Assembly (NCBI GenBank): GCA_016188495.1
Contig: JACPHU010000027.1
Coordinates: forward strand, 1-36,469
DNA length: 36,469 bases
Direction: 5' to 3'
DNA from: Candidatus Uhrbacteria bacterium
Lineage (GTDB): Bacteria > Patescibacteriota > Patescibacteriia > UBA9934 > GWF2-40-263
Under the pieces are notes generated by a model that did no database searches, had not been told where the DNA came from, and worked only from the letters and a program-made list of their open reading frames with translations. Positions within the stretch are counted from its first letter, which is position 1; every line of letters starts with the position of its first letter. The translations under genes and the position numbers were made by a program. Of this stretch, positions 3,534-27,324 are shown one piece after another.

Positions 3534-3578
3534 TTTTTAGAGTAATGCCTTTTTTATTTTTTTGTCAACGTATTATCC

Positions 3579-3775
3579 GAGACTGTTGAAATACTTCTCA
3601 TATTGCCTGAGCCTGTCTGCGGTGAGCTGCCTGCCATGAGCTTGTCGAATGGTCGAATCCGTCGAAGGCCGCAGATGATTTAGCCAAATTTTGCCCCTTC
3701 GATCGTTCGACTAGCTCACGACGAACAGTTCAGGGAATAAAATTTGGCATGATATTCGAGTTTTTCAACGGTCTC
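3579..3775 (+). repeat. Divergent copy of the nested palindromic element (E7), flanked by TATCC direct repeats
   Basis: Left arm GAGACTGTTGAAATACTTCTCATATTGCC; reverse complement of the right arm GAGACCGTTGAAAAACTCGAATATCATGCC; TATCC at 3574-3578 and 3776-3780. Confidence 0.65.
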
Positions 3776-4271
3776 TATCCTTATCGTTTTTCGCTCGCCT
3801 TGAGAGCCAGAGAAGAAAAAAGACCCCAGTGACAATGACGATATCGGATAGATTGATCGCAGATCTTTCAAAAAGGATGATGTAGTCCACGGTGAAACCG
3901 TAAACAATTCGATCGTAGAGGTTGCCTAATGCTCCAATTAAAATTATGAGCGTTGCAACCGTAATATCAGGATGTCGTTTCCAGTTTTTGTATGCGGCAT
4001 GGAATAAGCCTAATCCAATCAGAAAAGAAAAAAAGATAACGAATTCCAGTTTAAAGGGAATATCAAAAGCAATGCCCCAATTTTTGTGGATAGCAAATTG
4101 GAGGATACTGTGATTAACAACGTTTCCTTCTTCTGGAAATGTGTTTAATCCGTAGTATTTAAGGAATTCATCCAAAAGAACAATAGCTGTTACCGGAATC
4201 AAGGACCAATAGATGTGATTTGAAAATGATCTCACACTTCCTGTGTCAGAGTTTTTTTGCACTGAATACAC
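3765..4271 (-). CDS. lspA: Lipoprotein signal peptidase (signal peptidase II)
   Basis: GNLYDRIVYGFTVDYI catalytic motif and four hydrophobic segments. The 3' end lies inside repeat E7. Confidence 0.88.
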   Translation of the reverse strand: MYSVQKNSDTGSVRSFSNHIYWSLIPVTAIVLLDEFLKYYGLNTFPEEGNVVNHSILQFAIHKNWGIAFDIPFKLEFVIFFSFLIGLGLFHAAYKNWKRHPDITVATLIILIGALGNLYDRIVYGFTVDYIILFERSAINLSDIVIVTGVFFLLWLSRRAKNDKDRDR

Positions 4272-8794: not shown

Positions 8795-8847
8795 CCTGTA
8801 GAAGCGGGAGATATCGAGTTACCTCGAAATCTAAGGGTTTCTACAGG
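8795..8847 (-). promoter_or_regulatory. Strong hairpin in the pnp 5' leader
   Basis: Minus strand CCTGTAGAA...TTTCGAG-GTAA-CTCGA...TTCTACAGG, about 15 nt upstream of the pnp ATG. Confidence 0.55.
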
Positions 8848-8864
8848 ATTTTAATTATTTTTTT

Positions 8865-9029
8865 AGGACTTTCTCACTTGGATGCAGAGCGCGAAGAAAT
8901 CGAGGCTTTTTGTGAGCTGTATTCATATACAGTGACCCTTCAATAAATTCAGGGTCAATCTGAACTTGTTGAAGATTGAACAAAAAACGTAGATTTCGAC
9001 AAAGCTATGCGCCAAGTGAGAAAGTCCTA
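8865..9029. repeat. Palindromic element between the NYN gene and pnp (E8, possibly a separate family)
   Basis: AGGACTTTCTCACTTGG...CCAAGTGAGAAAGTCCT outer arms; internal TGACCCTTCAATAAATTCAGGGTCAATCTGAAC... module also found inside E5. Confidence 0.6.
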
Positions 9030-9032
9030 AAT

Positions 9033-9695
9033 TTAAAATTCTAATCGTCGCGTTCGGCTTTCCTCCTGATCTGTCACAGAATCTTCAGGATTCATAAAAA
9101 AACTAGAACTGATACTTTCTGTGTCTTCAAAATTTTCCAAGTCTTCATCGTCTTCTTCCGCTTCCTGCGATTTTTCCTGTCCGTGTTCGTTGAGTTTTGG
9201 ACCGATCAAATAACGTCGTCTGTTTTCTGATAAATCGGTAAAGTCATGTACGAGCCCTGTCAGTTTTGACGAGGTTGTCTTTCCAAAGGCCATGAGTTCT
9301 ACCATCCGTCCTCGACTTTGTACGTAATCGACCAACGGTTGAAAGTCTCCATCTCCGGAGACAATGATCACGACGTCGAGCGTATCAAGCATTTGAACCA
9401 CATCAATTGCCAGACCTACATCCCAATCCGCTTTTTTTTGACCGGAAGGATACTCCATAAGCGCTTTTTGGCGCGTTTCGATGCCGGCTTTTTCTAATGC
9501 ATCGAAAAAAGGTCGTTCTTCTCTGCCTTCGGTACTTACGACGTAGGCCATGGCCCGAATAAGTTTTCGGCCTGCAACCGCGTCTTCCACAATGTTTTTA
9601 AAGTTTACTTTGCGTTTGAAAAGATTTCGTGCGGAATAGTACATGTTTTGTGTGTCGATAAAAACGCCGACACGTTGATCTAGATGTTTGAACAT
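9033..9695 (-). CDS. NYN domain (LabA/DUF88-like) putative ribonuclease
   Basis: VGVFIDTQNMYYSAR...KKADWDVGLAIDVVQMLDTLDVVIIVSGDGDFQPLVDYVQSRG: PIN-like NYN acidic motifs. Confidence 0.88.
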   Translation of the reverse strand: MFKHLDQRVGVFIDTQNMYYSARNLFKRKVNFKNIVEDAVAGRKLIRAMAYVVSTEGREERPFFDALEKAGIETRQKALMEYPSGQKKADWDVGLAIDVVQMLDTLDVVIIVSGDGDFQPLVDYVQSRGRMVELMAFGKTTSSKLTGLVHDFTDLSENRRRYLIGPKLNEHGQEKSQEAEEDDEDLENFEDTESISSSFFMNPEDSVTDQEESRTRRLEF

Positions 9696-9740: not shown

Positions 9741-9950
9741 GAGATCTTCTCAAAACTCGATGAGATTGCCTTGAACGGGCTGCCCGCCCGACCGTCGAAC
9801 GTTCGTTCGGGCGGGTCGAGCCCCGAGAACCCTACTCAGAGTAGGGAGAACGGGGTCGACCCGCCCGAACGACTGAACAGGATTGATCGTCGTTCAGTCG
9901 GGCGGGCGGGCGCCCGTGAAAGGCAAGATCGCGAGTTTTGAGAAGATCTC
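9741..9950 (+). repeat. Nested palindromic element E1
   Basis: GAGATCTTCTCAAAACTCGATGAGATTGCCTTGAACGGGC ... GCCCGTGAAAGGCAAGATCGCGAGTTTTGAGAAGATCTC. Confidence 0.9.
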
Positions 9951-14579: not shown

Positions 14580-14706
14580 GAGTTCTCTTTAAAAATCGAT
14601 GAGATTGCCTTGAATGGGGTAATCGACGACAGAGCCGTACTCAGAGTACGGTGACGAGTCGATGGGGCCCCATGAAAGGCAAGATCGCGATTTTTAAAGA
14701 GAACTC
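14580..14706 (+). repeat. Nested palindromic element E2, directly upstream of tRNA-Arg
   Basis: GAGTTCTCTTTAAAAATCGATGAGATTGCCTTGAATGGGG ... GGGGCCCCATGAAAGGCAAGATCGCGATTTTTAAAGAGAACTC. Confidence 0.9.
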
Positions 14707-14711
14707 CTTGT

Positions 14712-14786
14712 GTCCCTGTAGCTCAACGGATAGAGCAGGGCTCTTCTAAGGCCTTGATGCGGGTTCGATTCCTGCCGGGGACACCA
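14712..14786 (+). tRNA. tRNA-Arg (TCT)
   Basis: Cloverleaf: acceptor GTCCCTG/CGGGGAC, anticodon loop CTTCTAA, T-arm GCGGG-TTCGATT-CCTGC, encoded CCA. Confidence 0.95.
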
Positions 14787-15525: not shown

Positions 15526-15586
15526 GACTCATTTTTTCTACCATTTTGTGTTAAACAAAGTGGTTTTTCTTTTTTTGGATGTGAAT

Positions 15587-15715
15587 GGGACTGTTCCCAA
15601 TTCGATGAGGTTGCCTTGAACGGGCTGTTGAGCCGCACGAACCCTATTCACAATAGGGAGAGTGTGGTCAACGGGCGCCCGTGAAAGGCAAGATCGCGAA
15701 TTGGGGGACAGTCCC
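15587..15715 (+). repeat. Nested palindromic element E3, flanked by TGAAT direct repeats
   Basis: GGGACTGTTCCCAATTCGATGAGGTTGCCTTGAACGGGC ... GGGCGCCCGTGAAAGGCAAGATCGCGAATTGGGGGACAGTCCC; TGAAT at 15582-15586 and 15716-15720. Confidence 0.9.
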
Positions 15716-15789
15716 TGAATGTCCACAGAGGGATTTGCCAAAAGATCTCATTTTGTTCTACCTTGTCATTAGATATGCGATCCATAATT

Positions 15790-18040: not shown

Positions 18041-18131
18041 TAAGAAATGAAACTCATTAATCTCTAACCCTCACCTATCTTGATCAAAAATAAGAAATAC
18101 GTTACAGTCTGGTGCGTCAATGACTCTTATG

Positions 18132-18210
18132 GAGACTGTGGTAAAACTCGATGAGATTGCCTTAAACGGGCGCCCGTGAAAGGCAAGATCGCGAGTTTTG
18201 CGACAGTCTC
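18132..18210 (+). repeat. Minimal (un-nested) palindromic element E4, flanked by CTTATG repeats, directly upstream of tRNA-His
   Basis: GAGACTGTGGTAAAACTCGATGAGATTGCCTTAAACGGGCGCCCGTGAAAGGCAAGATCGCGAGTTTTGCGACAGTCTC; CTTATG at 18126-18131 and 18211-18216. Confidence 0.92.
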
Positions 18211-18215
18211 CTTAT

Positions 18216-18291
18216 GGCGGCCATGGTGAAACGGTTATCACAGGGGTTTGTGGTACCTCTATTACGGGTTCGATTCCCGTTGGCCGCCCCA
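18216..18291 (+). tRNA. tRNA-His (GTG)
   Basis: G-1/C73 hallmark, acceptor GCGGCCA/TGGCCGC, anticodon loop TTGTGGT, T-loop TTCGATT, encoded CCA. Confidence 0.95.
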
Positions 18292-18299
18292 CAAAAAAA

Positions 18300-18326
18300 C
18301 TTCCAGGTATTGGAAGTTTTTTTGTT
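18300..18326 (+). terminator. Terminator after tRNA-His
   Basis: ACTTCCaggtattGGAAGTTTTTTTG. Confidence 0.65.
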
Positions 18327-21496: not shown

Positions 21497-24109
21497 ATGT
21501 CTACACAAGAAACAATTCTTTTATTGGATGGGAATGCTCTTTTACACCGCGCTTGGCATGCGATTCCTCCTTTAACGACGAAAAAGGGGGTTGTGGTCAA
21601 TGCTGCCTACGGCTTTGCTATGGTGGTAGAAAAAATGCTTGAGACGTACAAACCTGATTACATGGCGGTTGCCTGGGACTTGCCTGGCAAAACCTTTCGA
21701 CATGAGCTGTACGAAGCCTATAAGGCTCAAAGGGAAAAAAAGGAACAAGAGCTTTATGACCAGATTCCGCTCATTCAGAATATTCTTGAGGCTTTCGGGA
21801 TTCCCAGCCTTCAGACTCCTGGGTTTGAGGCCGACGATATTATTGGAACTCTCTCTAAACAGGCAGCAGAAAGAGGATTAAAAACACTGATCGTGACCGG
21901 AGATTTGGATAGTTTGCAGTTGGTGGATGAAAACACCAACGTTGTCTTTTTTCAAAAAGGGATTAGTGAAACAAAGGTATATGACCCTGTATCGGTCAAA
22001 GAACGGTATGGACTCACACCGGATCAACTTATTGATTACAAAGCTCTTCGTGGAGATCCATCTGACAATATTCCTGGAATTGCCGGTATTGGGGAGAAGA
22101 CCGCAACGATGCTTCTTCAAGAATACGGAACCATTGAGGGAATTTTGGAAGCATTGGATCGGATCGAAGAAAAATATGCGAAAAAATTGCGCGGGCAAGA
22201 ACAGCTCATTACCCAGTCTCTTACATTGGTAAAAATTGTCCGTGATGTTCCTCTGGAATTTTCGTTTTCGTCCGCTGTGGTTGGCCAGCCAAATCTTGAA
22301 CAGCTGTTGCCTTTGTATCGAGAACTCGAATTTAGGACGTTGCTGAAAAAACATCATGATCATTCCCCTGTTTTAGAGAAAAAATCAAAGGAACCAAAAG
22401 CGGTTATTCAGATAACACGTGAGGTGCAGACGTTTGTCGATGCGTTTTCTTCTTCATCGACTCTGGGTGTTCTTGTGGCGCAACAGCCGGCAGATTTGTT
22501 TGGTGCGACGCTTGCTGCCGTGGCTTGTTCTGACGGAGTACAAACACTTGTTCTTCCCAATCCTTCAAAAGAGGCGTTAGAAAAAATAACTTCTCTTCTT
22601 CTCAAAACAGAAAAGGTCGTGAGTCATGATCTTAAACAACTCATGCATCTATTAGGGGCACCTCTTACGGGTGACTTGTTTGATACCATGATCGCTTCTT
22701 ATCTGCTTCATTCTGGCAGTCGCGCGCATGACCTGTCCGGCGTTGTTTTTCAATCGTTAGGTCGTTCTATTTCTGAAATTCCTTCTACGTTTTCAAAACA
22801 AAAGGAGTATGAACAGTTCGGTCAGATTGTCGCTATATTGCCGGAGTTGTCTGAAAAGATGGAAATACAGATGAAACAGATCGGAGCAGAAAAAGTGTTT
22901 GAAGAAATAGAGATGCCTCTCCTTTGTGTGCTCTATCGCATGGAAGTGGAAGGAATTGAGCTTGATACGGCAAGTCTTTCGGCTTTTTCTGTCACTATTC
23001 AAAAACGCATGAGGGAATTGACGGATGCGATCACGAAATTAGCCGGAGTGGAATTTAATCTCAATTCCCCGTCTCAGCTTGCGGATGTATTGTTTGATAC
23101 GCTCAAGATTTCCACAAAAGGCATTAAAAAAACTAAGTCAGGATTTTCTACAGCTGCTCCTGAGTTGGAAAAATTATGGGACGTCCATCCGATTATCCCC
23201 CTATTGAGTGAATATCGAGAGCTTTCAAAATTACAGTCCACGTACGTCGATACTCTACCAAAACTGGTTGATAAAGACGGTCGCGTTCATACGACGTTTA
23301 ATCAAGCCATTGCCTCCACTGGTAGACTTTCTTCCTCTGATCCGAACCTCCAAAATATTCCCATTAAGACAGAACTTGGACGTGAGATTCGCAAGGCATT
23401 CGTGGCTTCCCGAGGGAACATCCTGTTGGCAGCGGACTATAGTCAGATTGAGCTACGTCTTGCTGCTGTCATTGCTAAAGACGAACCGTTCATTAAAGCG
23501 TTTCAAGAAGGGGCGGATATTCATACGTGCACGGCTTCAGAAATTTGGGAAGTTGCTGAGTCAGAGGTGACTAAAGATCAACGACGGGCCGCTAAGGCTA
23601 TTAACTTTGGTATTCTTTATGGCATGGGACCGCGTTCCCTTTCACGTTCAACAGGTCTCACCATGAATGAGGCAAAGCGATTTATTGATCGATACTTTGA
23701 AATTCATCATGCCATTGCAAACTATTTGAATGAAACAAAAGTGAAAGCTCATCAAGATGGTTACGTGGAAACTCTTTTTGGTCGTAGACGATATTTGCCA
23801 GAAATTCATTCCGGAGTCCCTATGCTTGTTGCCTCTGCTGAACGCATGGCGATTAACATGCCTATCCAGGGAACAGAAGCCGATATTATTAAAATCGCGA
23901 TGTTGCGTGTTGACGGTTGGTTGAAGACAAGTGGATGGCCTGCGAAATTGTTATTACAGGTTCATGATGAGTTAGTTCTTGAGGTTCAAAAAGAAGCGAT
24001 AGAACCTGTAATTCTTGGGATACGAGAAATGATGGAAAGCGTGGCATCATTTGAAGTGCCGTTGGTGGTAGATATAGAAGTAGGAAAGAATTGGGGTGAA
24101 CTTAAATAG
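21497..24109 (+). CDS. polA: DNA polymerase I
   Basis: 5'-nuclease domain (TGDLDSLQLV, GDPSDNIPGIAGIGEKTA), polymerase motifs (ASTGRLSSSDPNLQNIPI, DYSQIELRLAA, RRAAKAINFGILYGMG, VHDELVLE). Confidence 0.97.
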   Translation: MSTQETILLLDGNALLHRAWHAIPPLTTKKGVVVNAAYGFAMVVEKMLETYKPDYMAVAWDLPGKTFRHELYEAYKAQREKKEQELYDQIPLIQNILEAFGIPSLQTPGFEADDIIGTLSKQAAERGLKTLIVTGDLDSLQLVDENTNVVFFQKGISETKVYDPVSVKERYGLTPDQLIDYKALRGDPSDNIPGIAGIGEKTATMLLQEYGTIEGILEALDRIEEKYAKKLRGQEQLITQSLTLVKIVRDVPLEFSFSSAVVGQPNLEQLLPLYRELEFRTLLKKHHDHSPVLEKKSKEPKAVIQITREVQTFVDAFSSSSTLGVLVAQQPADLFGATLAAVACSDGVQTLVLPNPSKEALEKITSLLLKTEKVVSHDLKQLMHLLGAPLTGDLFDTMIASYLLHSGSRAHDLSGVVFQSLGRSISEIPSTFSKQKEYEQFGQIVAILPELSEKMEIQMKQIGAEKVFEEIEMPLLCVLYRMEVEGIELDTASLSAFSVTIQKRMRELTDAITKLAGVEFNLNSPSQLADVLFDTLKISTKGIKKTKSGFSTAAPELEKLWDVHPIIPLLSEYRELSKLQSTYVDTLPKLVDKDGRVHTTFNQAIASTGRLSSSDPNLQNIPIKTELGREIRKAFVASRGNILLAADYSQIELRLAAVIAKDEPFIKAFQEGADIHTCTASEIWEVAESEVTKDQRRAAKAINFGILYGMGPRSLSRSTGLTMNEAKRFIDRYFEIHHAIANYLNETKVKAHQDGYVETLFGRRRYLPEIHSGVPMLVASAERMAINMPIQGTEADIIKIAMLRVDGWLKTSGWPAKLLLQVHDELVLEVQKEAIEPVILGIREMMESVASFEVPLVVDIEVGKNWGELK

Positions 24110-24323
24110 AGACTTCTGTAAAAACGCGTCTTTTCGTTTTCCGGCCCATGGCCGGACCCGGCCTTCAGGCCGGGCACTGCGCCCGTCGACCCCACTCTCC
24201 CTATGTGAATAGGGTTCGTAGGGCTCGACCCGCCCGAATGAACGTTCGACGGTCGGGCGGGCAGCCCGTTCCTGTCTGCCGACAGGCAGGCAACGAAAAT
24301 CCATCATTTATACAAAAGTCTCC
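24109..24323 (-). repeat. Nested palindromic element E6 (inverted orientation) between polA and holA
   Basis: Minus strand GGAGACTTTTGTATAAATGATGGATTTTCGTTGCC...AACGGGCTGCCCGCCCGACCGTCGAACGTTC matches the interior of E1; outer end AGAGACTTCTGTAAAAACG overlaps the polA stop codon. Confidence 0.75.
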
Positions 24324-26915: not shown

Positions 26916-27012
26916 GTACTATTGTGTCGCCTCTTAGTATAGCAAACACGATGTAACTCTTCGCCTTTTATCGTATAAGTTCCTTCTGTAATATTTTACG
27001 ACACTTATTTAT

Positions 27013-27244
27013 GAGATCTCTCAAAACTCGATGAGATTGCCTTGAACGTCATGCCGAAGGCAGATCCGCCTCTGGCGGAGGCTGTCCGCCCGGACTCATG
27101 TCCATTCGGACGGGCTATCTCTGAAAACGTACCCAAAATGTACGTTGACCCTTCGATAAACTCAGGGTCAGTCTGAGTTTATCGAAGACTGAAGAGATAG
27201 CTGGGCGCCCGTGAAAGGCAAGATCGCGAGTTTTGAGAGATCTC
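27013..27244 (+). repeat. Nested palindromic element E5, directly upstream of tRNA-Arg(CCT)
   Basis: GAGATCTCTCAAAACTCGATGAGATTGCCTTGAACG ... GGGCGCCCGTGAAAGGCAAGATCGCGAGTTTTGAGAGATCTC; several further hairpins inside. Confidence 0.9.
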
Positions 27245-27248
27245 CAAT

Positions 27249-27324
27249 GTCCTTGTAGCTCAACTGGATAGAGCGGCAGCGTCCTAAGCTGAGGATGGGG
27301 GTTCAAGTCCCTCCTGGGACACCA
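27249..27324 (+). tRNA. tRNA-Arg (CCT)
   Basis: Acceptor GTCCTTG/CTGGGAC, anticodon loop GTCCTAA, T-loop TTCAAGT, encoded CCA. Confidence 0.93.

Follow-up and report, generated by a model that had tools for sequence, protein, structure and literature searches.

E4, a probable MITE-like hairpin upstream of tRNA-His in Uhrbacteria, belongs to a family in which the length of the target duplication follows the class of the terminal arms

The 79-bp hairpin E4 is very probably a non-autonomous, MITE-like element that inserted upstream of a tRNA-His gene with a target duplication of about 5 bp and that was likely moved in trans. It occupies positions 18132–18210 on the forward strand of the window, i.e. 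the whole stretch of 36,469 nucleotides of a Candidatus Uhrbacteria contig that was analysed. This reading is carried by the insertion with its duplications, a link between arm class and duplication length, covariation within the hairpin, empty sites in related genomes and ends that the family has in common with insertion sequences.

Results

Architecture of E4

E4 (GAGACTGTGGTAAAACTCG...CGAGTTTTGCGACAGTCTC) is flanked exactly by two copies of CTTATG, at 18126–18131 and 18211–18216. The last base of the right copy, G18216, is at the same time G-1 of the tRNA-His(GTG) gene (18217–18291, forward strand), which was located with ARAGORN and matches RF00005; the precise bracketing described in the original prediction, including the G-1, is therefore correct to the base. 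The tRNA gene is followed on the same strand by a terminator-like hairpin (18291–18325). All parts of E4 are described on the forward strand. The left terminal arm (GAGACTGTGGTAAAACTCG, 18132–18150), a class B terminal inverted repeat, pairs with the right arm (CGAGTTTTGCGACAGTCTC, 18192–18210) in an arrangement that is reflected in arm covariation among copies, and 17 of the 19 pairs in E4 are Watson-Crick. The left half of the core (18151–18165) is composed of a bulged A, TGA, GA, the inner stem TTGCCTT and an AA, which is GA in most copies of the family. The right half (18178–18191) consists of GA, the inner stem AAGGCAA, GA and TCG. Between both halves, sequence and fold delineate a minimal apex, ACGGGCGCCCGT (18166–18177). 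E4 had been described as the shortest form, which holds within the window but not for the genome, where a 72-bp copy (L037) is located elsewhere. An Rfam search of the window at the gathering score returned the tRNAs as sole matches.

A hairpin family with three classes of ends

The right core GAAAGGCAAGATCGCGA matches 44 times with up to two mismatches in the 1.19-Mb genome of origin (G000), compared to none for the reversed control. A covariance model was built from an alignment of 27 copies; its structure comprises 19-bp arms, a bulged A, three pairs, a tandem GA/GA, a 7-bp inner stem, a second tandem GA/GA, a 6-bp stem and a variable apex. With this model at least 66 hits were obtained in G000, and the hairpin family was detected in 31 of the 43 genomes that represent the same taxonomic family and in 43 of the 73 that represent the order. 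When 382 genomes sampled from the phylum were scanned, matches were confined to G000 and G002, both of the same genus; since eight candidates per genome were scored, absence of the element outside the order is a provisional conclusion. A 17-nt pattern scan across the collection gave mainly isolated matches in unrelated bacteria and a few Uhrbacteria contigs and was left out of the distribution. The copies range from 72 to 234 bp, have sharp ends formed by 19-bp terminal inverted repeats, and none contains a transposase gene.

Once arms and flanks were visible, three arm classes were defined post hoc: class A (GAGACCTYTGC), class B (GRGACYGTT, including E3 and E4) and class C (YYTTGAATTACG). 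ATGAGA and GATCG, the conserved motifs of the left and right core, are each found in 148 of 169 copies and in all classes (67 and 66 of 76 copies in class A, 30 and 31 of 34 in class B, 23 and 24 of 26 in class C). The inner stem, by contrast, varies with compensation, as in TTGCCTT/AAGGCAA, TTGCGTT/AACGCAA, TTTCGTT/AACGAAA and TTTGCGT/ACGCAAA. These conserved motifs and the compensating inner stem link the three kinds of ends into one family.

Several unusual arrangements were observed among the copies. L393 (G448:C29:3700-4500) is a class C element whose apex apparently harbours a class A element. L394 (G448:C11:600-1100) is a remnant of about 40 bp with class C arms and a partial core only, CCTTGAATTACGAAACTCGATGAGATTTTCGTAATTCAAGG. 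L251 (G003:C15) is situated between AAACACCCCGTGAG and GAGGGGTGTTT, apparently inside the loop of a terminator-like hairpin.

Target duplications and arm classes

Exact junction repeats of at least 4 nt were found at 55 of 170 copies with flanks, where about three are expected, and are missing at the remaining 115. A first set of 130 copies from nine genomes contributed 32 repeats versus 1.8 after re-pairing of the flanks, and a second set of 40 copies, taken from six genomes of which G448 belongs to another family, contributed 23 versus about one. The excess is found within each class as well, with 23 repeats observed versus 1.4 expected in class A, 13 versus 0.7 in class B and 15 versus 0.9 in class C. 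The genome-wide tabulation thus places the flanking repeats far above chance, in agreement with the insertion proposed originally.

The length of the duplication follows the arm class: 4 bp in class A (23 of 23 copies), 5 bp in class B (10 of 13, with two of 4 bp and E4 with 6 bp) and 7 bp in class C (14 of 15). Class and length agree in 47 of 51 cases, versus a maximum of 31 in 20,000 permutations, a test that is uncorrected for the post hoc definition of the classes. Insertion with duplication, as claimed in the original prediction, is accordingly upheld, but the single length of 5–6 bp given there is replaced by 4, 5 or 7 bp depending on the arms. Since a length of 5 nt prevails among the other class B repeats and E4 alone has six, the real duplication of E4 is probably TTATG, with the first base of CTTATG matching by chance.

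Other copies in the window

Two further copies in the window are precisely bracketed, exactly at the positions originally predicted: E3 (15587–15715, forward strand, class B arms) by the 5-bp duplication TGAAT (15582–15586 and 15716–15720), and E7 (3579–3775, forward strand), a diverged copy recognised from its sequence, by TATCC (3574–3578 and 3776–3780), likewise 5 bp. A clear duplication is absent from E1, E2, E5 and E6, as had been noted, which is normal for a family with 115 of 170 copies in this state. E1 (9741–9950, forward strand) has a long apex. E2 (14580–14706, forward strand) lies 5 nt upstream of tRNA-Arg(TCT) (14712–14786), and E6 (27012–27245, forward strand), with a long nested apex, 3 nt upstream of tRNA-Arg(CCT) (27249–27324). 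E5 (24109–24322, reverse strand) is assigned by sequence to a sister subfamily with the same ends and the core ATGGAT.../AGACG, to which L279 (2249–2376) and L287 (2098–2225) also belong and whose type is present in G009 and G061. Nested palindromic repeats (GACCCTTCGATAAACTCAGGGTCAGTCTGAGTTTATCGAAG) can be observed in the long apexes of E6, L002 and L028 and seem to be insertions into hairpin tips. A separate inverted repeat outside the E4 family, with 35-nt arms 130 nt apart, is located at 8847–8881 and 9012–9046.

Empty sites in related genomes

Several element-free relatives have a single leader sequence before tRNA-His and not a repeated one, and the comparison of orthologous loci suggested originally thus does not refute the insertion. 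A single CTTATG is present in G002, G062 and others; G012, with an identical tRNA-His, has a single ATCCAT-G in its leader and G034 a single TTTCAT. Within the genus of E4, both G002 and G003 have no element at tRNA-His. Hairpins upstream of tRNA-His are found also in G004, G022 and G027. The copy in G004 occupies the same position as E4 with a different interior, and because the same site is filled in both genomes, the insertion may be older than the split of G000 and G004, or the site may have been hit twice. A direct pair of filled and empty sites is provided by the 3' end of tRNA-Arg(TCT), which reads GGGGACACCA-element-ACCAGAAT in G004 and GGGGACACCATAAAG in G000, with ACCA duplicated.

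Placement beside tRNAs and genes

In G000, 17 of 65 copies are located 0–7 nt from the end of a tRNA gene, 15 at the 5' end and two at the 3' end, and in all 17 the right end of the element points towards the tRNA. Across all genomes this orientation is found in 28 of 29 tRNA-adjacent copies, the exception being in G448. A duplication is visible in just two of these 29. The arms of tRNA-adjacent copies are more diverged than those of other copies (7.6 versus 4.8 of 19 positions), but mismatches are not higher (0.88 versus 1.23).

Among the non-tRNA copies of 15 genomes, 45 have a gene 3' end at -6 to +9 nt from their right end and 14 have one at this distance from their left end, a bias that is less secure than that at tRNAs, the open frames having been called mechanically. 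The stop codon often overlaps the end of the element. Divided by duplication, the ratio of right to left ends is 34:9 in copies without and 11:5 in copies with a repeat. The stronger bias in duplication-free copies would fit retention rather than a preference at insertion, without being decisive. Flanks of non-tRNA copies were no more structured than controls, which include coding DNA and make this a weak test.

Promoter-like sites are weakly enriched upstream of tRNA-adjacent copies (seven versus 3.4 expected); at E4 the promoter scan gave no site above the threshold of the tool. From its position, E4 would be transcribed within the leader of pre-tRNA-His.

Arm covariation and replacement of inner modules

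Pairs in arms and core are standard in 98.2% of cases with 126 two-sided changes, a result matched neither by any of 500 shuffles nor by sliding. Six orthologous pairs of copies in G000 and G004 display 18 two-sided changes from one Watson-Crick pair to another versus seven one-sided changes. Among arm mismatches, G.T exceeds A.C by 47 to 12, or by 22 to 11 after collapsing to one count per position, pair and genus, a modest hint that the folded sense strand is under selection. Perfect stems can also be generated and maintained by template switching (PMC8794818), and both processes may be at work on the arms.

The interior follows a different course. Copies in G000 with an inner identity of at least 0.95 have an outer-arm identity of 0.52, equal to that of unrelated pairs. 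At the orthologous loci L216 and L239, flank identity is 92–95% and three compensated pairs separate the arms, but identity of the inner parts is only 52%; inner identity is similarly low for L004/L241 (0.41) and L028/L247 (0.36). Inner modules thus seem to be exchanged at the locus itself, with the surrounding arms and flanks retained.

Ends common to insertion sequences

The 18-nt ends of the hairpin family recur at DDE-type insertion sequences in two genomes. G029 harbors a 1341-bp insertion sequence with the ends GAGACCACTGCAAAACTC...GGAGTTTTGCAGTGGTACTC and an interrupted DUF772/DDE_Tnp_1 gene, and in G028 GAGACCGTTGAAAAACTC precedes a DUF772 open frame in an insertion sequence that is cut by the contig end. 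In addition, an IS-like end, GAGACCGTTGCAAAACTC, is found at two contig ends in G027. The nearest NCBIfam families of the G029 and G028 sequences are IS1182 and IS5, below curated cut-offs; with the interrupted gene the IS1182 score is 108.9 bits against a cut-off of 270, and the assignment is limited to 'IS1182/IS5-like'. Because these insertion sequences with DDE transposase domains have the same ends, the best reading of E4 from sequence is that of a MITE-like element mobilised in trans.

The search for a matching transposase in G000 itself returned no intact gene but a diverged trace (G000:C6:331 onwards). Autonomous partners were also looked for in class B (GGGACTGTTCCC) and class C, and none was found. 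Contig ends with class C ends in G448, considered as a candidate partner, proved to be hairpin copies themselves. Single class B ends in G023 are accompanied by ordinary-looking open frames, in which inspection by eye recognised no transposase.

Discussion

Proposed course of insertion and alternatives

In the proposed mechanism, E4 inserted just 5' of tRNA-His and duplicated a target of about 5 bp (TTATG, or CTTATG if six), the 19-bp arms serving as terminal inverted repeats of a non-coding element. The enzyme acting in trans would most likely be an IS1182/IS5-like DDE transposase with specificity for ends of the type GAGAC..TTG. Since the core is common to three classes of terminal repeats that leave 4, 5 and 7 bp, no fewer than two transposition specificities, and probably three, have acted on it. 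Once inserted, the arms stay paired via two-sided changes, which would arise by template switching, by selection acting on the folded strand or by a combination of these. The hairpin is tolerated between the tRNA and upstream DNA, probably as part of a 5' leader that RNase P would cut from the pre-tRNA.

In one alternative, E4 would act primarily as a structured RNA with a function of its own, a leader hairpin selected for expression or processing of the tRNA, with mobility only as its ancient origin. The crowding of uniformly oriented copies at tRNA 5' ends, arms that diverged there without extra mismatches, the G.T excess and several tRNA-adjacent copies common to different species would all fit such a role. 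However, most examined tRNA-His genes of the family have no hairpin, most copies lie away from tRNAs, and the orientation rule extends to the 3' ends of tRNAs and genes, where no sense RNA is expected; together with the strong evidence for insertion this makes a primarily functional RNA unlikely. That the hairpin never moved, being a terminator-like structure between chance or pre-existing repeats, could be argued from the 115 copies without a repeat and from the fact that stable intergenic hairpins are common. Nevertheless, the arm end has no U-tract, and the excess of repeats with class-specific lengths, the link between class and length and the empty sites already refute this idea, to which we give next to no credence.

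Two other modes of movement were considered. Site-specific integration by a tyrosine recombinase would account for the close association with tRNA ends, but an att-like duplication of part of a tRNA is absent, the junctions have no common crossover sequence, the duplications are 4–7 bp long and varied in sequence, the majority of copies lie away from tRNAs, and no integrase is present inside the element; this explanation is extremely improbable. Conserved unpaired bases in a hairpin whose stem sequence is otherwise free are reminiscent of single-strand transposition as in REP/RAYT or IS200/IS605 systems, in which case the mismatched bases of the core would serve for recognition. To our knowledge, these systems leave no target duplication, whereas duplications are present here, and end-specific terminal repeats common to DDE insertion sequences likewise render this route very improbable. 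A MITE-like element moved by a DDE transposase in trans remains the preferred reading.

A mobile hairpin defined by its structure

More tentatively, and with the odds against it, the heritable unit could be the folded core itself: a structure-defined mobile hairpin that has acquired terminal repeats from three or more transposition systems (4, 5 and 7 bp), whose inner module is swapped among resident loci without loss of the local arms and flanks, and which settled in fixed orientation in the pre-tRNA leaders of one lineage and may serve tRNA processing there. MITEs are usually viewed as the degenerating remains of a single insertion sequence, whereas here a core persists across a bacterial order with three kinds of ends, and it becomes testable whether the structured core rather than the ends is the spreading unit. 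Arms and inner module evolve independently at one locus, where template switching or exchange between hairpins can be followed in a natural archive. The recurrent, oriented placement at tRNAs is a test case for a mobile hairpin that is tolerated or used in tRNA leaders of very small genomes.

Comparison with known systems

A search of the available literature yielded no paper joining MITEs with the Candidate Phyla Radiation or Uhrbacteria with transposons. The status as a MITE is in itself ordinary. As far as the searched terms show in the MITE reviews consulted, one core with three end classes and as many duplication lengths, locus-wise arm covariation, replacement of inner modules and oriented residence at tRNAs are not described; a 2024 review contains neither the term tRNA nor compensat-.

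The IS1182/IS5-like DDE insertion sequences (DUF772, DDE_Tnp_1) have the 18-nt ends of class A and of part of the class B arms, but they are coding (1341 bp in G029), while E4 has 79 bp and no transposase, and the hairpin core is not found at their ends. In template-switch hairpins (PMC8794818), multi-base compensated changes preserve the perfect pairing of long stems, a pattern also found for the arms of the E4 family; there the process was inferred for RNA genes, whereas for terminal repeats of a mobile element it is proposed here. Correia/NEMIS elements (PMC2649163) are hairpin MITEs near genes that can act on neighbouring transcripts via RNase III. They are described there for Neisseria and not for Patescibacteria and have TA-type ends, unlike the E4 family, and comparable arm covariation or residence in tRNA leaders was not found in that text.

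Bacterial MITEs such as RUP, Correia/NEMIS, ERIC and QMITE, as portrayed in PMC2229807 and PMC10969869, are likewise small and non-coding, with terminal inverted repeats and target duplications; they give rise to stable hairpin transcripts and share their ends with insertion sequences, RUP with IS630-Spn1. Unlike MITEs in general, as far as these reviews describe them, the E4 family combines one covarying core and conserved unpaired bases with ends of three classes and duplications of three lengths, its arms covary copy by copy, and a quarter of the copies in the genome of E4 abut tRNA genes.
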